From the NCBI GenBank assembly GCA_032622095.1, contig CP136062.1, positions 134,619,282 through 134,683,281 on the forward strand: a DNA stretch of 64,000 bases, given 5' to 3'. This DNA is from Siphonodentalium dalli (taxonomy: Eukaryota > Mollusca > Scaphopoda > Gadilida > Siphonodentaliidae). The translations under genes were made by a program, and so were the position numbers. Positions 5,918 through 53,430 of the stretch are shown here, in pieces; position 1 is the first letter of the stretch; each line of letters opens with the position of its first letter. The notes under the pieces were generated by a model, which had not been told where the DNA came from, did not search any database, and saw nothing but the letters and a program-made list of their open reading frames with translations.

Positions 5918-6350
5918 AGGTACAAAACATTCGAGAGCATCCTCCTAAACAGATTTCTAGGTGATAAGTGTCTTGATGATTTCCCTAACGCACTTCAACA
6001 CGGATTTCAGAAAAACGTTAGCTGTGTGATGACATCATTTATTCTGCAGGAGTCAATAAGCTACGCCGCTGACATGAACTCTCGTGCATATGTGTGCTTT
6101 CTTGATAGTCAGAAAGCTTTTGACCGAGTCTGGCATCAAGGCCTCTTGGTGAAACTCAATGAACTCGGCTTTAAAGGCAAAATTCTACGCATTGTCTCCA
6201 ACATGCACTATAACTGCACGAGTCGAGTGATGTATAATGGCACATTATCAAAACCAGTGGATATTCTGCAAGGAACAAGACAAGGGGCAGTGACTTCCCC
6301 TTTTTTCTACCTTGTATTTATCAACGACTTGCTAGCGCGTCTCAGTTCAA
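5918..6350 (+). pseudogene. Non-LTR retrotransposon reverse transcriptase fragment (truncated)
   Basis: An open frame running from 5918 without a stop encodes the central palm of a LINE reverse transcriptase, the enzyme that copies element RNA into DNA at a nicked target. Seen in order: a QHGFQKNVSC finger motif, then VCFLDSQKAFDRVWH (motif A, with the first catalytic Asp), then LQGTRQGAVTSPFFYLVFIND (motif B). The sequence leaves RT homology after LLARLSS, before the YXDD box of motif C, and passes into the tandem repeat that follows. Upstream endonuclease and downstream thumb are absent. The frame continues to a stop at 6604 but the last ~85 residues are repeat-derived. A stop at 5915-5917 and the missing second catalytic Asp pair make this a dead stump. 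Clade (CR1, jockey and similar) is not assigned. Confidence 0.9.
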
Positions 6351-6359
6351 CGAACGAAG

Positions 6360-8030
6360 GATCTCAATCCGATCAGAGGGTCCCCATATCATCAAGATAT
6401 ATATATAATCATCCCCATAATATGAGGAATATAATGGTGTGGTTTAACTATGTCAAAAGTCGCACCGTTCGCGTCAGTGATAACTGGAAGGGGAGAGGGG
6501 CACCAAAATTTATCAAAATAATTTTAGCGCCAAATTCCACCAAAGTGATGCACATTCTTCTGAGATCTTCTCCACGATACAAGGAATCTTATTGTGTGAT
6601 TTAAAGACGCCAAATTTGTGTCGTTGGGATGAGAGATTTGGGGGCGGGCGGTGGGGGTACTAACTCTGATAAGAATTGGTTTAGTCGCCGATTGCCACGA
6701 AACTTATAAAATTCATCCCCATGGTATGAGGTGTCTAATGGCGTGGCTTAAAGCTGTCAACAGTGGCGTCATTCGAGTCAGGGGTGCACTGAAAGGGAGA
6801 GGGGCACCAAAATTGATACACAATATTTTTAGCGCCAATGTCCACCAAATTGATGCACATTCTCATGATATGAGGAATCTAATCGTGTGATTTTAAAGAC
6901 GTCATATTGGTGCTGCTTTGGTGAGAGATGTGGGTGGGGTTAAATTTTATAAAAATTTGTTTAGTCGCGGATTAGCACCAAACTTACAAATAATAATCTC
7001 CATGATATCAGGAGTCTAATTGTGTGGTTTAAAGATGTCAAACGTGGGGCCATTCGAGACAGGGGTGCCTAGAGGGTGAGAGGGACACAAACATTGATAA
7101 ACAATAGCCTATGTTTAGCGGCGATTTCCACCTGATTGATACATATTCTTCTACGTGATACGAATAATCTAATCGTGTGGTTTAAATGCGCCAAATTGGT
7201 GCCTTTTGGGTGAGAGATATGCGATGGTGGCCCTAAATTTGTATACTCGCCAATTTTCATAAATTTTATATATATTCATCTCTATAATGAGTCTAAGTGT
7301 GTGGTTTAACTATGTCAAAAGTGGCGCCGCTTGAATCCGAAATAGGGATGGGAGGGTCACCAAAAACTTATAAAAATATGTTTAGTGCCAATTACCATCA
7401 AACTCATACACGTTCTTCTCAAATGATGCAATGAATCAAATATTTGCGAATATCTGTCTGTGTTCTATATATAACTTTAAGGGTACAATCGAGATGGCAC
7501 CAAGGCGGTCTAACAGGGGTAACTTTTACGAGTAAGATAATGGTGCGGGTTAAAATTTTCTAAAGTGACGTTGTGTCAGGGGAGGTGTTATTTTTAGCAC
7601 AGATTTCGATCAAATTTATATATTATTCTTTTCCGTGATACGAGGAATGAAAACGTGTGATTTAAAGACGCGAAATTGGTGCCGTTTGGGTGAGAGATGG
7701 GGGTAATAACTATGATAAGAATTTGTTTAGTTGCCGATTACCACCAAACTTATATATAATCATCTATATAATGCATGCATGAGTCTAATAGACGTGGTTT
7801 AAATATGACAAAAATTGGCGCGGTTCAAGTCATGCATGAGGGGACTTGCACCAAAGTTGATACAAATATATTTAGCACTGATTCCACCAAATTCATGCAC
7901 GTTCTTCTCTAATGATATGATGAATTAAATCACATTTGGGGTCGTTTGGGTCATGGATGCCGAGAGGAGATTCACTAACATTTATAAGATTGTTCAATTC
8001 GCCAATATCCAACTAAGTTATATATAGTCA
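6360..8030 (+). repeat. Degenerate tandem repeat, period about 275-310 bp with ~150-bp half-units
   Basis: Two phrases recur: 'caccaaaa-ttgata' followed by 'tttagcgcc' (near 6499, 6805, 7083, 7358, 7849), and 'gatatgaggaatctaat' followed by 'gtgtggtttaaa' (near 6420, 6725, 6870, 7000, 7150, 7640, 7780). Spacing of the first phrase starts at 306 and drifts. The second phrase appears about twice per unit, suggesting an original dimer. Copies are perhaps 75-85 percent alike by eye. The array abuts the LINE stump directly. Confidence 0.8.
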
Positions 8031-8836: not shown

Positions 8837-8841
8837 ATGCT
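8837..8841 (+). repeat. Left target-site duplication ATGCT
   Basis: ATGCT immediately precedes the left terminal inverted repeat and recurs directly after the right one (12788-12792). A 5-bp direct repeat at both exact TIR edges is the footprint expected from a staggered-cut insertion. Confidence 0.7.
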
Positions 8842-9570
8842 CACACTCAGTAATCGAATTTCCAAAGATCGGAGATAATTCCGGTTCCCGGTGGAAACGC
8901 GTCCGGTTCCCGGTGGAGATTTCGTTTTTTTATATACCAAGCAGACGAAATGTCATACTCAAGAAGGTAAGTAGCATTATTTCTTAGCTCCGACCAATTT
9001 ATTCTAGTAAAACGAATGTCATAGAAATCATTCGTCAAATTCCCATCGGAATCTGAAGTTTGAAATCATATGAACATAACGATACAAAATCGCAATCGCC
9101 GATGTTCCTATTGCTTTATGTGTCAACCGTCGCCTATTTTCGGTCTGTATTTGTATCTCTCGCAACAATAAGGATGTCAAACCGGTCCCGTGGTGACTTC
9201 CACCACTTTGAGCTATAATAAATGCAACCACATTGCTCTCAAAACAAACAAAAAGCATATTTGTCACTTTTCAAAATTCATTTTTGATGAAAAAATTGGC
9301 AACGCATTTATCGGGAAATGACAACTCCATCAATCGGATCGACAATATGACAGTTCTCAGATACGTATCCATTTATCCATCGATCGTGCCCTCAGACTTG
9401 CGCAACTTGGTGAATATGTGTTATTACTATTGTGTGTCCACACACTATCATGTTTTGAGGCGATCTTTTGTTTCTGATAAGTATTGCGTCGAATCATAGA
9501 TGACGAGACGCAATGCCCGTTAGAAACAGAAGTAAACCTTATAATGGTAGTTAATACATTATCGTGAATG
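8842..9570 (+). repeat. Left terminal inverted repeat (729 bp)
   Basis: Homologous along its length to the reverse complement of 12054-12787; similarity stops abruptly after CATTATCGTGAATG. Two direct copies of CCGGTTCCCGGTGGA sit near 8881 and 8903, conserved in the other arm, and could be protein-binding sites. A consensus splice donor, AAG followed by GTAAGT, lies at about 8966-8974 reading inward. In the right arm the corresponding bases read AAG/ATAAGT, so that donor is destroyed there. An acceptor-like CTTCTTCTGTTTCAG follows just inside this arm at 9671. Confidence 0.85.
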
Positions 9571-9685
9571 GACATATTTTGGTCTGGTTTATTAAGACGA
9601 GTTTGGAACGATAAAAAATCATTTGTTTGTGAATTGATATCATTTTTATGTTATTTCTTCTTCTGTTTCAGTGCTCGTAAATAGA

Positions 9686-9832
9686 GGATCTCACATGAGT
9701 TACTATTTTATACGGAATTTAACAACCGAGTTCACTAAATTCGATTTGAGCCGAGGTTTACCGAGGCTCAAATAGAATTTAGAGGACGATGTTGATAAAT
9801 TACGTATAAAATAGGACGAGTGTGAGATACCT
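9686..9832. mobile_element. Foldback/MITE-like palindrome inside the element
   Basis: The left half (ATCTCACATGAGTTACTATT, GTATAAAAT-type words) pairs with the right half (ATTTTATAC.. to GTGTGAGAT) around a short centre near 9757. Arms of about 65 bp match imperfectly: TCTCAC, TACTATTTTATACG, GAATTTA, GATTTGAGCC on the left each have partners on the right. The form is that of a MITE nested in the larger element, or of a transcript hairpin. Confidence 0.65.
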
Positions 9833-9916
9833 TTTATCACATGATCAAATAAACCCGAAGCAACGCGCAATATTCATCGAAAACAACAATCATAAACTAC
9901 AGCGATCGCAAGTTAT

Positions 9917-10288
9917 TTGAAGAACGCCGTGACGTCATCGCACGCGCTGATATTAAACGTGTCTATTACCGATAATTATGAAACTGCTTTTATGGCCAAA
10001 TTATGTGATAAAAGGAAGTATTCCTTTGCCGTGCCTGGTTGGTATAAAACAAAAAAGAGTCGACCGACAATCCCGAGGACAGCACACGCACCGGAAACGT
10101 CGCCGGCGACTGTGGCAACCTCTGATCTTCTGGAAACTCCACAGTGTAGTGAACATCAACCGACTGTTACATCCCACGCTCCCACAAAGCCAAAAGTACA
10201 ACATAACAAAACCAGGAAGAGGAGTGTTACCAGTTCGACAACACCACAGGACCGACGAATAATACGAATCTTTTCAGTTTCTAAATGA
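9917..10288 (+). CDS. Possible Thr/Pro/Ser-rich open frame, unrecognised
   Basis: A 123-codon frame beginning MKNAVTSSHALILNVS. The second half is rich in Thr, Pro, Ser and Lys/Arg, with no fold or motif I recognise and no transmembrane segment. It lies between the two inverted repeats, on the strand opposite to the zinc-finger exon. Frames of 60-95 codons exist in other phases over the same bases, so this may be chance. It is listed because an acceptor-like site at 9671 and a donor-like site in the left arm could place it in a spliced inward transcript. Confidence 0.2.
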   Translation: MKNAVTSSHALILNVSITDNYETAFMAKLCDKRKYSFAVPGWYKTKKSRPTIPRTAHAPETSPATVATSDLLETPQCSEHQPTVTSHAPTKPKVQHNKTRKRSVTSSTTPQDRRIIRIFSVSK

Positions 10289-11041
10289 TTGACACGCTTA
10301 TGTTCTGTTATGTTACAAAACACAATATACGAGTATATCAAATTGATGTATTATGAGTTGGCGTATCGGTCAAGTCCCTTCACCCCCGTTCTGTGGGATA
10401 CCGGGGTCCTGGAGAATACACCTGCAACCGGGACAAGTTGGGTGATTACATAATGAACAGGTTGCGATTTTGAAACCTGAAACTTGTAACGTGTGTTGAT
10501 GTATGAATCAAATGCGGTCACATGACGACATCTGTGATTATTGAAACAAATAAATCATAACCGATGGCAGTTAATGCATTGTGCAATGCATCATTCTGGT
10601 GTTAAATAAAAAAAAGATTCACATATCACATGCTAATACAACTTTGGTACAACAGTGCTAGTTTGGTAGGATTTAGTTATTGCATGTATATTTATGATTG
10701 AGAGATAATTGTATGCTCTATTCGTCGGAGAACTCCATCCATACAAAGCTACCTCGCAGTCAGGATTACACCCGTTACAAGTTCACAAATCGCAACCTCT
10801 TCAATTTGTTTTTAAAATCGTCGGGTTTCGAATAAAAAACTGTCCTTACAACAGGACATGCATTGTCAAAAATAATGACTAGCTTCCCACTGTGACCCTC
10901 TCCCTCTGACCATGCATGGAAGTAATAACTGACTTGTACTACAATAAAAATAAATCTTCCTCTTGAGACAAAAACAACTTAACAAAAAGTATGTTTCTGA
11001 CATAAAATAAAAAAATATACATGCATATATACATATAATAA

Positions 11042-11783
11042 TTATAGTTTATGTTTTCGGGTCTCGTGGGTCTTTAATCCACCTCGATGGGAATAGCTCT
11101 TTCCACAGCGGTCACAAACATACTTCCTGGGGGAAGTGTGGACGTGCCTGTGTTCTTTCGTATACTTTTGTGACTTAAACAATTTGCCACAGATATCACA
11201 CGGCACATCTGGTAAATTTCCGCGAGTAGTTTTGTGGAAGGCGAAGTTTGATTCTGATGCGAATGTAGAGCCACACTTGCATTTATGGGGCCTCACACCC
11301 ATGTGGGCATTCACGTGATCCGAGAATTTATGCACATAATTGAACCCTTTGCTGCAGACATCGCACTTAAACTTGAATGTGCCCGAATGTTCATTAATAT
11401 GCTCCCTAAGTCCCGCCTTAGTTTTATACTCTTTGCTACAATCCGGCTCATCGCATTTATGGCTTTTCCCCGCGTGTTCAGCGTCATTGTGTTGCTTTAG
11501 GTCGAAGGCATCGTGGAACCTGCGTGTGCAGCAGCTGCAACTTAACATTTTAGTTCTATCGTGTGTCATTTGATGGCGTTTTAAGGCCCATTTCCTTGAT
11601 AGTTTTATTTTGCATTCAGTACATTCGTAATGGACCCCGCCTGGTGTCAGAGCGATGGCGTCACCCGTCTCATCACTAACATTATCACTAGTATCTTCTA
11701 CTGGGCCGTCGTCTCTGGGCGTGGGACCACTATCTTCTTGTTCCGAATCTTCCATTGGCTCACAGCCCAGTTCTTCCAAATCA
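11042..11783 (-). CDS. C2H2 zinc-finger protein, terminal exon with seven fingers
   Basis: This exon encodes about 245 residues ending in TAA at 11044-11042. An acidic, Ser/Thr-rich N-terminal stretch (residues 1-48) precedes seven C2H2 fingers. Cys/His positions are 53/56/69/73, 81/84/97/102, 109/114/127/131, 139/142/155/159, 167/169/182, 194/197/210/214 and 222/225/238/243. Finger 5 is degenerate: only one residue separates its cysteines and the second His is missing. Linkers are not of the TGEKP type. Proteins of this class bind DNA or RNA in the nucleus; a specific target cannot be inferred. On the minus strand a pyrimidine-rich tract ending TTGTCAG lies just upstream, so the exon most likely starts at 11783 and an ATG-bearing exon lies at higher coordinates; the first in-frame ATG here is codon 9. 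The frame has no stop, unlike everything around it. It sits between two long inverted repeats, so it may be transposon-borne. Confidence 0.85.
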
Positions 11784-12053
11784 CTGACAATAGAAATAAC
11801 AGAAGTTATAGAACACCGAGAGAAATCGGGATGAGGCTAGCTGCAGTCGTGGTGAACCTGATCCCGAATAAATCAAGATAAAATCTTACATTTACATATA
11901 GAGTCGGACCCTCCCCCAACTATTTCCTTGATAAGATTACATCACATGGAACCAAACTGACAAACTGGTAAATATTTGCGCCAACAATTGTGTTTGCAAT
12001 TCTGAATTTCAATCATGATTTGTAAGATAAATTTGTTATTTACCACTATGTGT

Positions 12054-12787
12054 CATTCACGATAATGTATTAACTACCATTAAGGATTAATTCTGTTTCT
12101 AACGGGCATTTCGTCTCGTCATCTATGGCTCGACCAATACTTATCAGAAACAAAAGATCGCCTCAATACATGATAGTGTATGGACATACAATGGTAATAA
12201 CACATATTCACCAAGTTGCGCAAGTCTGAGGGCACGATCGGTGGATAAATGGATACGTATCTGATAATCTGAGAACTGTCATATTGTCGATCCGATGGAT
12301 GGAGTTGTCATTTCCCGATAAATGCGTTGTCAATTTTTTCATCAAAAATGAATTTTGAAAAGTGACAAATATGCTTTTGTTTTGTTTTGAGAGCAATATG
12401 GTTGCATTTATTATAGCTCAAAGTGGTGGAAGTCACCACGGGACCGGTTTGACACTCCTCATTGTTGCGAGAGATGCAAATACAGACAGAAAATAGGCGA
12501 CGGTTGACACATAAATCAATAGGAAAATCGGCGATTGCGATTTTGTATCGTTAGGTTCATATGATTTCAAACTTCAGATTCCGATGGGAATTTGACGAAT
12601 GATTTCTATGACATTCGTTTTACTAGAATAAATTGGTCGGAGCTAAGAAAAAATTCTACTTATCTTCTTGAGTATGACATTTCGTCTGCTTGGTATATAA
12701 AAAACGAAATCTCCACCGGGAACCGGACGCGTTTCCACCGGGAACCGGAATTATCTCCGATCTTTGGAAATTCGATTACTGAGTGTG
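12054..12787 (-). repeat. Right terminal inverted repeat (734 bp)
   Basis: Reverse complement of 8842-9570 with scattered substitutions and small indels. Its outer edge GAGTGTG is followed at once by ATGCT. If the zinc-finger gene starts here, transcription would run inward (minus strand) from this arm; the inward donor-like site reads ATAAGT instead of GTAAGT. Confidence 0.85.
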
Positions 12788-12792
12788 ATGCT
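12788..12792 (+). repeat. Right target-site duplication ATGCT
   Basis: Exact partner of 8837-8841. Confidence 0.7.
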
Positions 12793-27485: not shown

Positions 27486-28030
27486 CTACGAGTGTGCAAA
27501 TTGTGAAACAACGCCCAAACAGACTCTAGAAGTCATAACTCCTGAAATAAAATTTGGACCGGACTGATTTCCGATATCATATGCAATATAGACATATAGT
27601 CATAAGTAGAAGCCACACATGGCCACAATTGGTTAACATCGAAGTTATGAACTGTTGTGCCTATATGTCGCGAAATAGACATGCGGGAAATAATTCAGGA
27701 GGTATACATCCAAATACAATTAGGATAAAATTGGTGTTCGACACATTCAAGATATTCGTGAGTATAATACATGAATATATTATATACCAATACTTTCGAA
27801 TTTTTCCCAGTATCGCAATATGTCGATAAATACTTGCACCATACATTTATATATACGGGGAATATGAAGTCACAAAAATACAACTACATGTCAACACGGT
27901 CTTTGGGTCCCAAATAGACAACATAAATGACAGTGAACGACACGGAACATAAAATAACGTTCTGTGTTAGCCTATGCCATGCAGATATGCATGGTATAAA
28001 AAAAGAGTGTTTGTTTTCACTTCTGGGCGA

Positions 28031-28973
28031 AAAAAATGAAAAATGGGTGTCACATTGGCGGACTATGTACGGACTCCTGTCCAAGGTGAGAAATCTTCAC
28101 CTATCTGCAGACTTAGCATTAAAACTTTTTGATTACCTCATACAACCCATTCTGTTATATGGATGTGAATTATGGGGCTTTGAGAATACTCGCGATATCG
28201 AGGCTGTCCATCTCAAATTCTGTAAGCTCCTAACGAACATGAAAATGAGTACTCCAAATTATATGGTTTATGGTGAGCTTGGAAGATGGCCATTTCGTGT
28301 TGAAATTGACAAAAGAATGACCTCATTTTGGAGCCGCCTAATGACGAAAAAAAAAGTAATCACCCCTTCATATTGTACAAGTTAATTTTAGCTATATATG
28401 AAAGGCGGTGGCAAAAGAATACGATACCTTGATCACATTGAAGACATTTTTGTGCGTGCGGATTGCGAAGACAACTGGAAAACACAGTTACCCGTTTCGA
28501 ATTCTAAACTTCAATATATGCACAAAAAACTACTTGGCAATTTTTTTCTCCAGTGGAATAATGAAGTTTCTCAATCGTCACGAGGAGAATTTTATCGTAA
28601 CCTGAAAAAATGTCCTTCGCTTAGTCGTTTTTATGTTGAATGTCCCTTTAATTCAATTATCTCGCTACAGAGAATTCGTACATCAAATCATAGATTAGGC
28701 GTTGAAACTATGAAGTGGGCAAAATCTAAGAACCAAAAGAAAGGGATATCTGGAATTGGCTCATGTCAGTTATGTGGCGCCATCATGTGCGATGAATATC
28801 ATTTTGTAATAGTTTGTCCAAATTTACGTGAATACCGCATGAAATATATTGACGAATCGATCTGGAAAAATCCATCGCGAGAGTCTTTTTATGGCTTATT
28901 AAATTCTTCTGACACACTGAAGCTAAACAAACTTTCAAACTTTATAAAAATCGGATTGAAACAATTTAAATAA
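28031..28973 (+). pseudogene. LINE ORF2 C-terminal half, frameshifted
   Basis: First block: KWVSHWRTMYGLLSKVRNL, LALKLFDYLIQPILLYGCEL, VYGELGRWPFRVEIDKRM, the conserved stretch just after the RT palm. Second block (to 28973): RTSNHRLGVETMKWAK, then CQLCGAIMCDEYHFVIVC, a Cys-x2-Cys-x8-His-x4-Cys knuckle, and a short tail ending in TAA. Between them a run of nine A at 28357-28365 shifts the frame: the phase after it continues sensibly as HPFILYKLILAIYER, and a second shift near 28400 restores the original phase. Palm motifs A-C and the endonuclease are missing. This is a decayed, 5'-truncated copy from a different LINE family than the one at 25.0-25.7 kb. Confidence 0.88.
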
Positions 28974-38297: not shown

Positions 38298-38640
38298 AAA
38301 TCGGACATAAGCGAGCGATAATTTTAAACGCGCCAAAATCGTGACAGATAAACAAACACACACCCTCGCTATCTCACCCCACATATAGAGCCTCACACAC
38401 ACACACAAACGCATCCCATACGTGTGCAAGGGGGGTCTCTGGGGACTTTGACATAATCCCGGGAAATGGGGACTCGGAGATAGATGTGTTGGAATCATTC
38501 CATTCCGTTGTACATTTGACACATTGGTCCGTGTCCTTATAGCACTGTCGAACTGTTGACATGTTGCCCGTTGCGACATTTTAAAAATAATGCCATAGAA
38601 TGGGGACTTCAAAATGGGGACCTTGTCAACCGGATGTGCA
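38298..38640. other. No gene seen; ACAC-rich tract and TGGGGAC words
   Basis: CA-rich stretch near 38393-38407 and several TGGGGAC words (38466, 38602, 38616), the same word as in the 87-bp minisatellite that follows. The 135-codon minus-strand frame across it has no motif. Confidence 0.5.
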
Positions 38641-39349
38641 TGTGAATGTAACTGGGGACGTGCGTTTATCTTTTCGATAAAGCACACCTAACCATCCATA
38701 TGGGGACCTTTGTCATACATGTATGCGTGTGAATGTAACTGGGGACGTGCGTTTATCTTTTCGATAAAGCACACCTAACCATCCATATGGGGACCTTTGT
38801 CATACATGTATGCGTGTGAATGTAACTGGGGACGTGCGTTTATCTTTTCGATAAAGCACACCTAACCATCCATATGGGGACCTTTGTCATACATGTATGC
38901 GTGTGAATGTAACTGGGGACGTGCGTTTATCTTTTCGATAAAGCACACCTAACCATCCATATGGGGACCTTTGTCATACATGTATGCGTGTGAATGTAAC
39001 TGGGGACGTGCGTTTATCTTTTCGATAAAGCACACCTAACCATCCATATGGGGACCTTTGTCATACATGTATGCGTGTGAATGTAACCGGGGACGTGCGT
39101 TAATCTTTTCGATAAAGCACACCTAACCATCCATATGGGGACCTTTGTCATACATGTATGCGTGTGAATGTAACTGGGGACGTGCGTTTATCTTTTCGAT
39201 AAAGCACACCTAACCATCCATATGGGGACCTTTGTCATACATGTATGCGTGTGAATGTAACTGGGGACGTGCTTTTATCTTTTCGATAAAGCACACCTAA
39301 CCATCCATATGGGGACCTTTGTCATACATGTATGCGTGTGAATGTAAAT
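38641..39349 (+). repeat. 87-bp minisatellite, eight copies
   Basis: ACTGGGGACG starts at 38651, 38738, 38825, 38912, 38999, 39173 and 39260, with the sixth unit (39086) reading ACCGGGGACG: period exactly 87. Units are almost identical; the sixth has two substitutions and the eighth one (GTGCTTTTATC). Each unit contains the hairpin TTATC-TTTTC-GATAA and the word ATGGGGACC. The high identity implies recent expansion or homogenisation. Confidence 0.98.
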
Positions 39350-47523: not shown

Positions 47524-50500
47524 ATGGGCGCGTGGCACACCCAAATACACAATATAAACACCCCTCGCCCCTCAACATCACTCCCGGGGGTACAACCCGA
47601 TGGGGCGAAAATGGGAACGGACCATTTTCGTGAACGGTAAGGACATCGACCGATTTGACGGCATGGGTGGGTGACCCGCCCCAAATAAACCATAGAAATA
47701 CCCGAACCCCACCATCACCGGGTGGGGGGGGGGGGGGGGGTAACACACCGATGGGTAAACATTGGGTATGGACCATTTTCGAGAACGGTACGGATTTCGA
47801 CCGATTGCTGGCATTTGGGTGGGTGGCCCGCCACTATACACCATAGAAAAACCCCATCCCACCTGTCAGCTGGGGGTACCTCCCAAGGGGGTGAAAATGA
47901 GGTACATGTATCGACCATTTTCGAGAAGGTAAGAATTTCGACCGATTTGACTACATGGCAGGGTGGCCCACCATAACACCACCCTACAAACACTCCGACC
48001 CTCCAATCATCCGGAGGTACCACCCTGAGGTGTGAAAATGGGGTATGGACCATTTTCGAGAACGGTAAGGGTTTCGACCGATTTGACGGCATGGGTGGGT
48101 GGCCCGCTCCAAATACACCCTAGAAACACCCATTCCCCCATCCATCACCACGGGGGTACCACTCCGAGGGGGTGAACATGGGGTATGGACCATTTTCGAG
48201 ACGGTAAGGATATTGACCGATTTGACGGTATGAATGGGTTGCCCTACTAACACGCCCTAGAAACGTCCCGACCCCCATCATCACCCACGGGAGGTATGCT
48301 ACCACCCGAGGGGTTAAAATGCGGTATGGACCATTTTCGAGAACGGTAAAGATTTCAACCAATTTGACGGCATGTGTGGGTGACCCGCCCATAATAGACC
48401 ATGGAAACACCCCGATCCCCATCCATCACCCCGGCGGTACCACCCCGAGAAGATGAAAATGGGGTATGGACCATTTTTGAGAAAGGTAAGGACTTCAACC
48501 GATTTGACGGCACGGGTGGGTGGCTTACCCAAATACACCATAGAAACACACGATCGCACACCATCACCACCGTGGGTACCACCCGAGGGGGTGAACATGG
48601 GGTATGGACCATTTTCAAGAACGGTAAGGATTTCAACTGATTTGACGGCGTGGGTGGGTGGCCAGCCACAAATATACACTAGAAACACACCTACCCCAAC
48701 CATCATCCCCTGTGGTACCACCACGAGGGGGTAAAAATGGAGTATGGACAATATTCTAGAACGGTAAGGATTTCAACCGATTTGACGTTATGGGCGGGTG
48801 GCACACCCCAAATACACAATAGAAACACCGCACAACCGGGGAGTACCAATTTCAACCAATTTGACGGCATGTGTGGGTGACCCGCCCAAAATAGACCATG
48901 GAAACACCCCGATCCCCATCCATCACCCCGGCGGTACCACCCCGAGAAGATGAAAATGGGGTATGGACCATTTTCGAGAAAGGTAAGGACTTCAACCGAT
49001 TTGACGGCACTGGTGGGTGGCTTACCCAAATACACCATAGAAACACACGATCGCACACCCATCAGCACCGTGGGTACCACCCGAGGGGTGAACATGGGGT
49101 ATGGACATTTTCGAGAATGGTAAGGATTTCAACTGATTTGACGGCGTGGGAGGGTGGCCAGCCACAAATATACACTAGAAACACACCTACCCCAACCATC
49201 ATCCCCTGTGGTAACACCACGACGGGGTAAAAATGGAGTATGGACAATATTCGAAAACGGTAAGGATTTCAACCGATTTGACGTTATGGGCGGTTGGCAC
49301 ACCCAAATACACAATAGAAACACCCCACAACCGAGGAGTACCACGTCATGGGTGGGTGGCCCGCCCAAAATACAACCTAGAAACACCCGAACCCCACCAT
49401 CACCGGGGGGGGGGGTAACACTCCAAGGGGGTGAACATTGGGTATGGACCATTTTCGAGAACGGTAAGTATTTCGACCAATTTGACGGCATTTCGGGTGG
49501 GTGGCCTGCATGAAATACATCACAGAAAAACCACACCAACCTGTCAGCTGGGGGTACCACGCAAGGGAGTGAAAATGAGGTATCGACCATTTTCGAAAAG
49601 GAAAGGATTTCGACCGATTTGACTAGATGGGAGGGTGGCCCGCCAAAACCACACCCTCGAAACACCCCGACACCACCAATCACCACCGGAGGTACCAGCC
49701 CGAGGGGGTAAAAATGGGGTATGGACCATTTTCGAGAATTGTAAGGATTTCGACCGATTTGACGGCATGGATCGGTGGCCACCCCGAGATTAAAATGGGG
49801 TATGGACCATTTTCGAGAAAGCTAAGGACTTCAACCGATTTGATGGCATGGGTCGGTTGCCCACCCCAAATACACCATAGAAACACCCCGACCCCACCAA
49901 TCATCCCGGATGTTCCAGCCCGATGGGGTGAAAATGGGGTATGGAACATTTTCGAGAACGGTAAGGATTTCGACCGATTTGACGGCATGGTCGGTGGCCA
50001 GCCACAAATACACCATAGGAAACCAACGACCACACCAATCACCCCGTTGGTACCCGTCCGAGGGGGTGAAAATGGGTTATGGAATATTTTCGATAACGGA
50101 AAAGATTTCGACCGATTTGACGCCATGGTTCGGTGGCCACCCCGAGATGAAAATGGGGTATGGACCATTTTCGAGAAAGCTAAGGACTTCAACCGATTTG
50201 ATGGCATGGGTGGGTGGCCCACCCCAAATAGACCATAGAAACACCCCGACCCCACCAATCAGCCCGGGGGTACCAGCCCGATGGTGTGAAAATGGGGTAT
50301 GAACATTTTCGAGAACGATAAGGATTTCGACCGATTTGACGGCATGGGTCGGTGGCCAGCCACAAATACACCATAGGAAACCCCCGACCCCACCAATCAC
50401 CCCGGTGGTACCCGCCCGAGGGGGTGAACATTGGGTATGGACCATTTTCGCAAACGGTAAGGATTTCGACCGATTTGATGTTATGGGCGCGTGGCACACC

Positions 50501-53430
50501 CAAATACACAATATAAACACCCCTCGCCACACAACATCACTCCCGGGGGTTCAACCCGATGGGGTGAAAATGGGAACGGACCATTTTCGAGAACGGAAAG
50601 GACATCGACCGATTTGACGGCATGGGTGGGTGACCCGCCCCAAATAAACCATAGAAATACCCGAACCCCACCATCACCGGGTTGGGGGGGGGGGGTAACA
50701 CACCGATGGGTAAACATTGGGTATGGACCATTTTCGAGAACGGTACGGATTTCGACCGATTGATGGCATTTGGGTGGGTGGCCCGCCACTATACACCATA
50801 GAAAAACCCCATCCCACCTGTCAGCTGGGGGTACCTCCCAAGGGGGTGAAAATGAGGTACATGTATCGACCATTTTCGAGAAGGTAAGAATTTCGACCGA
50901 CTTGACTACATGGCAGGGTGGCCCACCATAACACCACCCTAGAAACACTCCGACCCCTCCAATCACATGGAGGTACCACCCTGAGGTGTGAAAATGGGGT
51001 ATGGACCATTTTCGAGAACGGTAAGGGTTTCGACCGATTTGACGGCATGGGTGGGTGGCCCGCTCCAAATACACTCTAGAAACACCCATTCCCCCATCCA
51101 TCACCACGGGGGTACCACTCCGAGGGGGTGAACATGGGGTATGGACCATTTTAGAGACGGTAAGGATATTGACCGATTTGACGGTATGAATGGGTTGCCC
51201 TACTAACACGCCCTAGAAACGTCCCGACCCCCATCATCACCCACGGGAGGTATGCTACCACCCGAGGGGTTAAAATGCGGTATGGACCATTTTCGAGAAC
51301 GGTAAAGATTTCAACCAATTTGACGGCATGTGTGGGTGACCCGCCCAAAATAGACCATGGAAACACCCCGATCCCCATCCATCACCCCGGCGGTACCACC
51401 CCGAGAAGATGAAAATGGGGTATGGACCATTTTTGAGAAAGGTAAGGACTTCAACCGATTTGACGGCACGGGTGGGTGGCTTACCCAAATACACCATAGA
51501 AACACACGATCGCACACCATCACCACCGTGGGTACCACCCGAGGGGTGAACATGGGGTATGGACCATTTTCAAGAACGGTAAGGATTTCAACTGATTTGA
51601 CGGCGTGGGTGGGTGGCCAGCCACAAATATACACTAGAAACACACCTACCCCAACCATCATCCCCTGTGGTACCACCACGAGGGGGTAAAAATGGAGTAT
51701 GGACAATATTCTAGAACGGTAAGGATTTCAACCGATTTGACGTTATGGGCGGGTGGCACACCCCAAATACACAATAGAAACACCGCACAACCGGGGAGTA
51801 CCACCCGATGGTTGAAAATGGGGTATGGACCATTTTCGAGAAAGGTAAGGACTTCAACCGATTTGACGGCACTGGTGGGTGGCTTACCCAAATACACCAT
51901 AGAAACACACGATCGCACACCCATCAGCACCGTGGGTACCACCCGAGGGGTGAACATGGGGTATGGACATTTTCGAGAATGGTAAGGATTTCAACTGATT
52001 TGATGGCGTGGGAGGGTGGCCAGCCACAAATATACACTAGAAACACACCTACCCCAACCATCATCCCCTGTGGTAACACCACGACGGGGTAAAAATGGAG
52101 TATGGACAATATTCGAAAACGGTAAGGATTTCAACCGATTTGACGTTATGGGCGGTTGGCACACCCAAATACACAATAGAAACACCCCACAACCGAGGAG
52201 TACCACGTCATGGGTGGGTGGCCCGCCCAAAATACAACCTAGAAACACCCGAACCCCACCATCACCGGGGGGGGGGGGGTAACACTCCAAGGGGGTGAAC
52301 ATTGGGTATGGACCATTTTCGAGAACGGTAAGTATTTCGACCAATTTGACGGCATTTCGGGTGGGTGGCCTGCATGAAATACATCACAGAAAAACCACAC
52401 CAACCTGTCAGCTGGGGGTACCACGCAAGGGAGTGAAAATGAGGTATCGACCATTTTCGAAAAGGAAAGGATTTCGACCGATTTGACTAGATGGGAGGGT
52501 GGCCCGCCAAAACCACACCCTCGAAACACCCCGACACCACCAATCACCACCGGAGGTACCAGCCCGAGGGGGTAAAAATGGGGTATGGACCATTTTCGAG
52601 AATTGTAAGGATTTCGACCGATTTGACGGCATGGATCGGTGGCCACCCCGAGATTAAAATGGGGTATGGACCATTTTCGAGAAAGCTAAGGACTTCAACC
52701 GATTTGATGGCATGGGTCGGTTGCCCACCCCAAATACACCATAGAAACACCCCGACCCCACCAATCATCCCGGATGTTCCAGCCCGATGGGGTGAAAATG
52801 GGGTATGGAACATTTTCGAGAACGGTAAGGATTTCGACCGATTTGACGGCATGGGTCGGTGGCCAGCCACAAATACACCATAGGAAACCCCCGACCCCAA
52901 CAATCACCCCGGTGGTACCCGCCCGAGGGGGTGAAAATGGGGTATGGACCATTTTCGCAAACGGTAAGGATTTCGACCGATTTGATGTTATGGGCGCGTG
53001 GCACACCCAAATACACAATATAAACACCCCTCGCCCCTCAACATCACTCCCGGGGGTACAACCCGATGGGGTGAAAATGGGAACGGACCATTTTCGAGAA
53101 CGGTAAGGACATCGACCGATTTGACGGCATGGGTGGGTGACCCGCCCCAAATAAACCATAGAAACACCCGAACCCCACCCATCACCGGGGGGGGGTAACA
53201 CTCCGAGGGGTAAACATTGGGTATAGACCATTTTCGAGAACGGTACGGATTTCGACCGATTGATGGCATTTGGGTGGGTGGCCCGCCTCTATACACCATA
53301 GAAAAACCCCATCCCACCTGTCAGCTGGGGGTACCTCCCAAGGGGGTGAAAATGAGGTACATGTATCGACCATTTTCGAGAAGGTAAGAATTTCGACCGA
53401 TTTGACTACATGGCAGGGTGGCCCACCATA
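47524..53430 (+). repeat. Large ~139-bp satellite-like array with 2.5-3.0 kb higher-order blocks
   Basis: About forty units carrying GGGTATGGACCATTTTCGAG, GGTAAGGATTTCGACCG, ATTTGACGGCATGGGTGGGT and GGCCCGCC, an ACACCATAGAAACACCCC word and a GC-rich variable segment. Unit spacing is mostly 138-140 bp (for example 48042 to 48182; 49441 to 49579), with some deleted units of about 81 bp. Higher-order repetition: ATGGGCGCGTGGCACACCC occurs at 47524, 50483 and 52990 (offsets 2,959 and 2,507), and the segments between are nearly identical between blocks. Within a block, 48354 onward is re-duplicated at 48851 (offset 497). G/C homopolymer runs vary between copies. All frames are repeat artefacts. 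Confidence 0.96.

Follow-up and report, generated by a model that had tools for sequence, protein, structure and literature searches.

A probable two-gene DNA transposon in a scaphopod genome with apparent gene starts in both terminal repeats

Transib and RAG-like transposons end in CAC and duplicate 5 bp of their target. RAG-like elements also carry two convergent genes, and those of protostomes retain 5′-CAC and the 5-bp duplication with a terminal repeat consensus of 13–15 bp (PMC7204232). P transposase, whose insertions are flanked by 8-bp duplications, has the catalytic residues D230, D303 and E531, a [C/D](2)H signature after the second aspartate and an insertion domain after β5 (PMC7776569, PMC8230255). 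In ISL2EU, of the PHIS superfamily, AATT targets have their central AT duplicated (2 bp), the tips are usually GG, the repeats span 6–259 bp, and a DDE/THAP gene is paired with a separate YqaJ open reading frame (PMC4482050). Here we describe a locus of the scaphopod Siphonodentalium dalli, in a 64,000-nucleotide stretch of contig CP136062.1 (assembly GCA_032622095.1, positions 134,619,282 to 134,683,281; hereafter the window). Positions 8842–12787 of the window are very probably one copy of a two-gene DNA transposon, internally deleted and mobilised in trans. The element is apparently of an undescribed type in which both ends carry the same gene start; no prior description was found in the open-access literature searched, Repbase and subscription papers being outside that search and an entry there possible.

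A first-pass annotation, made from the letters of the window alone, had placed a zinc-finger frame between inverted arms with CACACTCAG at their outer edges and an ATGCT duplication beyond them. These boundaries were borne out with the arms redrawn: 8842–9583 and 12042–12787 are reverse complements, 94.5% identical over 751 columns and identical throughout their outer 90 bp. CACACTCAG forms the outer edge of both, and the adjoining ATGCT pair matches for 5 bp and is not extendable to 6 bp. A blastn search of the window with the arm as query finds these two copies and no other. The element is laid out as follows.

8837–8841, no strand: left target-site duplication ATGCT, identical to 12788–12792
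8842–9583, plus strand: left (transposase-side) terminal inverted repeat, starting CACACTCAGTAATCG, 94.5% identical to the right arm
8881–8917, plus strand: two direct copies of CCGGTTCCCGGTGGA with a 22-bp period near the tip, read from the letters; candidate protein-binding site
8950–8966, plus strand: 17-nt first coding exon ATGTCATACTCAAGAAG in the left repeat, followed by GTAAGT, with TATATA upstream at 8931–8936
9672–9681, plus strand: first bases of transposase exon 2, preceded by splice acceptor TTCTTCTGTTTCAG, from the sequence
9682–10012, plus strand: 331-bp insertion disrupting the transposase frame, with a palindrome at 9685–9814 and TAAA on both borders; common to the window, L009 and L010
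10013–10211, plus strand: remnant of the transposase N-terminal coding sequence, beyond which about 4.16 kb of interior present in L011 is deleted, from comparison with that copy
10210–10260, plus strand: remnant of the last transposase exon, containing RGVLPVRQHHRTDE, from sequence comparison
11042–11783, minus strand: zinc-finger exon of 246 residues after acceptor TTATTTCTATTGTCAG, stop at 11042–11044, from the open reading frame, Pfam and family comparison
12042–12787, minus strand: right (zinc-finger-side) terminal inverted repeat, reverse complement of the left arm
12664–12680, minus strand: 17-nt first coding exon in the right repeat, with AT in place of GT at the donor (12663–12662)
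12788–12792, no strand: right target-site duplication ATGCT, identical to 8837–8841

Copies of the arms elsewhere indicate mobility. Querying the source genome (2.23 Gb, nine contigs) with the arm 8842–9570 gave at least 30 matches, 20 of which form ten inward-facing pairs; the ten single arms or fragments were not counted, and 19 stretches were retrieved. One pair, L015, is without its left tip, and nine copies of this family (family 1) remain for the duplication count. An exact 5-bp duplication flanks all 11 copies with both ends located: ATGCT, ACACT, ATATA, GTTAC, TATAT, AGTAT, GTTTT, AAGGT and TTATT in family 1, and AATGA and ATATT in two copies of a second family (family 2). Two readings were made by eye: TTATT, which flanks a 34-kb copy, and the altered tip of L013. 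A target duplication of fixed length, here 5 bp, thus recurs at many sites, the mark by which a cut-and-paste transposon with terminal inverted repeats is recognized. The first-pass proposal of a non-autonomous DNA element is upheld by these results, as is its expectation of multiple arm copies with different duplications, some carrying the zinc-finger exon (copy L011). IS481EU makes duplications of about 4, 15 or 25 bp (PMC10045372) and was dropped as a candidate relative for that reason.

The window copy, L009 and L010 occupy three sites, each with its own duplication, and have the deletion junction and the 331-bp insertion in common. The same junction at three sites implies that a deleted copy was itself propagated, presumably by proteins encoded elsewhere; the window copy would have moved using those of other copies. 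The insertion, whose palindrome arms are 55 bp and which sits within a transposase exon remnant, is not at that point in L011, L012, L013 or L017, and L014, L015 and L018 were unmatched by the pattern used. L017 and L018, on contig C3, have a common flank, and the transposase gene of each contains an insertion that appears LINE-like; the two are probably duplicated copies of one insertion. Another non-autonomous form, L016:907–4899, has good tips, the duplication AAGGT and an internally repetitive interior in which blastn found no match to the zinc-finger or transposase parts.

Family 2 repeats the same plan. Its 11.36-kb element, with 543-bp repeats, tips CACACCCTGTAATC and the duplication AATGA, holds a transposase, the C-terminal exon of that transposase and a convergent zinc-finger gene. 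The ends read CACAC...GTAATC, as in family 1, and TCCGGTTCC lies at the same offset from the tip as in the window arm. Over the outermost 50 bp, family 1 and family 2 are identical at 34 of 50 positions, compared with a mean of 12.7 across the 24,704 50-mers of the family-2 stretch; 34 is reached by two of those 50-mers, equal to the number of family-2 tips, and the next two 50-bp blocks inward agree at 14 and 17 positions. Identity is about 50% between the transposases and 40% between the zinc-finger proteins, which are colinear over 271 columns, including the start DLEELGC/DLDDLGC. Repeat length across the families is about 540–745 bp. The paired genes are also present in a third group (L032/L055), where a 510-bp inverted match was rejected as the group's repeats because it does not flank the zinc-finger gene on the side expected.

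The first-pass annotation had proposed a search for an autonomous relative with a transposase between similar arms, and both families do include longer copies with a transposase-like gene. L011 (7,746 bp) has the repeats and zinc-finger exon of the window copy together with a 1013-residue open frame, convergent to that exon, that matches Pfam YqaJ (E 4.7e-7) and, in PHROGs, a RecE-like exonuclease (9.2e-11). A genome search with this protein gave 53 matches (1601 candidates, 45 scored). In family 2, the L031 protein, about 50% identical to that of L011, gives E 1.4e-8 against YqaJ and, over profile positions 62–127 of 137, E 1.7e-4 against the RNase H model of P/THAP9 (TNP-like RNase H N); the corresponding RNase H match of L030 is 4.4e-5 (positions 60–127). 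Motif order is clearest in the single 1173-residue frame of L032: DGKK (87), YqaJ (275–429), FDG (628), DGHH (983) and LENETFFG (1145). The two segments flanking the YqaJ domain hold candidate catalytic aspartates, and we read the domain as placed between D1 and D2 of the transposase. In the longer copies, the left gene of the element encodes at least some 1,000 residues, with segments of a probable RNase-H-like transposase on either side of a YqaJ-type nuclease domain. The exon bearing DGHH and LENETFFG has a relative in the 34-kb family-1 copy (contig C2), in three pieces and 57–68% identical to family 2.

Such a protein could belong to a P superfamily member that has acquired extra domains, a reading that we consider unlikely. 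It would account for the RNase H matches of L031 and L030, for DGHH, which fits the [C/D](2)H signature (PMC8230255), and for LENETFF, which by eye resembles the LENFF of P-like proteins of this genome. The candidate D, D, D(2)H and E-like motifs of this putative RNase-H-like transposase also follow the same order as in P element and THAP9 proteins, and P elements likewise have internally deleted derivatives. However, the duplications here are 5 bp rather than 8 bp, the repeats are about 540–745 bp, the partner gene encodes zinc fingers and D1 is separated from D2 by YqaJ, whereas in P transposase the insertion domain follows β5 (PMC7776569). No THAP domain was matched in L011 or L031, whose exon-2 N-termini formed part of the query; the L032 query began beyond its N-terminus. 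Elsewhere in this genome, P-like proteins match nearly all of the 137-position model; here positions 60–127 match weakly, preceded by YqaJ and with DGHH present, and the family-1 and family-2 loci are absent from the 97 matches found genome-wide with this P/THAP9 model. When profiles were compared with four P-like proteins of this genome (two near-identical), the outcome counted partly against our own reading too: the D2 part aligned in register (E 0.0011 in one comparison, probability 21%) and the C-terminal part out of register (E 0.13). Because only the first of these parts is in register, a distant P/THAP9 relation is a weakly and partly supported lead. Several of the 97 matches lie in frames of more than 800 residues; P-like elements or genes coexist in this genome.

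The YqaJ domain also raises the PHIS/ISL2EU group, since ISL2EU too combines a transposase with a YqaJ-type nuclease in a DNA transposon (PMC4482050). Membership is highly improbable: the genes of ISL2EU are separate, its duplication is AT, its tips are GG and its repeats are shorter, whereas the element here has one fused frame, 5-bp duplications, CAC tips and repeats of about 540–745 bp. We likewise disfavour the kinship with Transib/RAG transposons suggested by the first-pass annotation. An element of that kind, mobilised by a RAG1-type transposase, would explain the CAC start and the 5-bp duplications, yet we give it hardly any credence: the heptamers are CACACTC and CACACCC rather than CACWRTG (the consensus quoted by that annotation), the repeats far exceed the 13–15 bp consensus, and the partner gene is a zinc-finger gene, not RAG2-like. 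No sign of RAG-like or Transib proteins was seen; the long proteins have no RAG1-type Pfam match, a weak negative that distant kinship or a missing Transib model could also produce.

The second gene of the transposon is represented in the window by a frame on the minus strand running from 11782 to the stop at 11042–11044, 246 residues counted from the splice site. Pfam C2H2 models match it at E 1.4e-15. It had been described as the only long intact frame in the first 60 kb, with seven fingers; it is the longest of 12 open reading frames of at least 150 amino acids, and others exist, among them a reverse-transcriptase fragment at 6026–6604 and frames in a satellite at 48–53 kb. Inspected by eye, six of its fingers have the regular pattern and the seventh to be counted (HKCKCGSTFASESNFAFHKTT) is without its last histidine. 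Searched against PDB sequences, the protein found ordinary zinc-finger proteins, and the transposase gave no useful match; viral contigs searched with the zinc-finger protein and with the transposase alignment A2 yielded no confirmed relative of either.

The first-pass annotation had raised the possibility of a cargo-carrying element; this exon would then be one captured from the host, and C2H2 genes are indeed numerous in the genome (263 matches to the zinc-finger protein; 10,864 candidates, 150 scored). We examined linkage among the rows listed, setting 33 rows of at least 105 bits (31 places), a threshold set after inspection of the list, against 61 transposase places, a set that leaves out certain weak rows and additional exons adjoining at a single locus. 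Ten of the 33 lie within 25 kb of a transposase match, all ten in convergent orientation, compared with none of 40 lower-scoring rows (73–104 bits, a subset of those listed); a random site has a chance of about 0.14% of falling that close. Family 1 accounts for two of the ten linked rows, L011 and the 34-kb copy, and family 2, recognised by the tips, for three (L031, L030 and L056); eight of the other 23 high-scoring rows are family-1 deletion copies. With a colinear partner in family 2, uniformly convergent linkage and a first exon supplied by the repeat in two families, capture as cargo is very improbable. The colinear partner and the linkage make the zinc-finger gene look like a standing component of the transposon, and suggest that some C2H2 genes of this genome may belong to transposons, a point relevant to annotation. 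Near one zinc-finger/transposase pair (C3:91538624, 91539366), about 6 kb away, lies a P/THAP9 RNase H match (C3:91532629–91532975) on the strand opposite to the transposase, either a nested P-like element or something else.

Where the two genes begin is indicated by their splice sites. A regular 3′ splice site precedes the zinc-finger frame, the first exon base being 11783, which implies a downstream exon of a spliced gene with its start in another exon. The first-pass annotation had proposed checking for a transcript joining the arm to 11783, and the arms do hold a first exon able to make that junction: both window arms carry a TATA-like box and, about 108 bp inward of the tip, the 17-nt ATGTCATACTCAAGAAG, which joins the zinc-finger exon in frame as MSYSRSDLEELGCEPM (by eye from the letters). 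By the same reading, frames joined from first exon to exon 2 stay open in family 1 (MSYSRSDLEELGC), in family 2 (MARISSTDLDDLGC) and in the family-2 transposase (MERISRPPHKRK). The exon was located in 14 arms of seven family-1 copies, with a GT donor in 13; its pattern had no match in L013 and L015. Identical in both family-1 repeats behind the TATA-like box, it has other letters in family 2 (ATGGAACGAATATCCAG and ATGGCACGCATTTCGAG), where the phase is the same and each is followed by GTAAGT. A 17-nt exon and donor in each repeat imply that two convergent genes begin within the repeats. MuDR, the maize Mutator element, belongs to a different transposase superfamily, and Mutator duplications are 9 bp. 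It too has two convergent genes, for a transposase and a partner, with promoters within its terminal repeats (PMC3440606); here, the repeat additionally holds the first coding exon, and the duplication is 5 bp.

We propose the following mechanism. The left gene, lost in the window and largely present in longer copies, would encode a large protein whose RNase-H-like DDE site, remotely of the P/THAP9 type, cuts and joins the element ends; DDE chemistry by this protein is likely. Its YqaJ domain perhaps trims, or cuts the other strand. The zinc-finger protein may bind the repeat tips, where CCGGTTCCCGGTGGA occurs twice with a 22-bp period; an accessory or regulatory role there is slightly favoured, and recognition of the ends of its own element is plausible. 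Both genes would be co-expressed, because both start from near-identical repeats. If correct, this would be a new transposase architecture, a nuclease inside an RNase-H-like transposase, with second-strand cutting directly testable, and the terminal repeats would combine the recognition site with a promoter and the first coding exon of both genes.

Several further observations weigh against this reading. Both RNase H matches are in family 2 and fall slightly under the curated Pfam cut-off; Pfam finds no RNase H in L011, L032 or L034, and nothing at E ≤5 in the C-terminal exon. L011 is without the exon bearing DGHH and LENETFFG that family 2 has, the transposase match of the 34-kb copy contains seven stops, and no undamaged full-length family-1 copy was found among those examined. 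The YqaJ lysine (GCEFKCP) is retained in L030 and is threonine in L031 (GCEFTCP; L031:1330–4341). Repeats of the third group (L032/L055/L057) were looked for and not found, and the TATAT duplication of L012 lies within an AT repeat and is weak evidence taken alone. On the zinc-finger side, the frame is intact in two of the eight family-1 copies compared (the window and L011; a ninth, L015, carries just a piece), and dN/dS among young family-1 copies ranges from 0.25 to 3, mostly 0.4–1.3, with one pair undefined. Since these values are uninformative, selection is suggested solely by the comparison between families. Finally, the zinc-finger-side donor of the window copy is AT, the sole non-GT among the 14 arms inspected. 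With its donor mutated, the zinc-finger gene of this copy is probably silent now; the shared first-exon model would hold for the family, with that side of the window copy as the exception.

Elsewhere in the window, Rfam gave no match at gathering scores. A reverse-transcriptase fragment (Pfam RVT_1) lies at 6026–6604, and frames at 27927–28973 look LINE-like by eye and have no Pfam match. An 87-bp tandem repeat occupies 38614–39347 (8.4 copies, 98% matches), and a long complex satellite with periods of about 140 bp and larger, a G+C content of about 0.5 and many open frames extends over 47524–53424.

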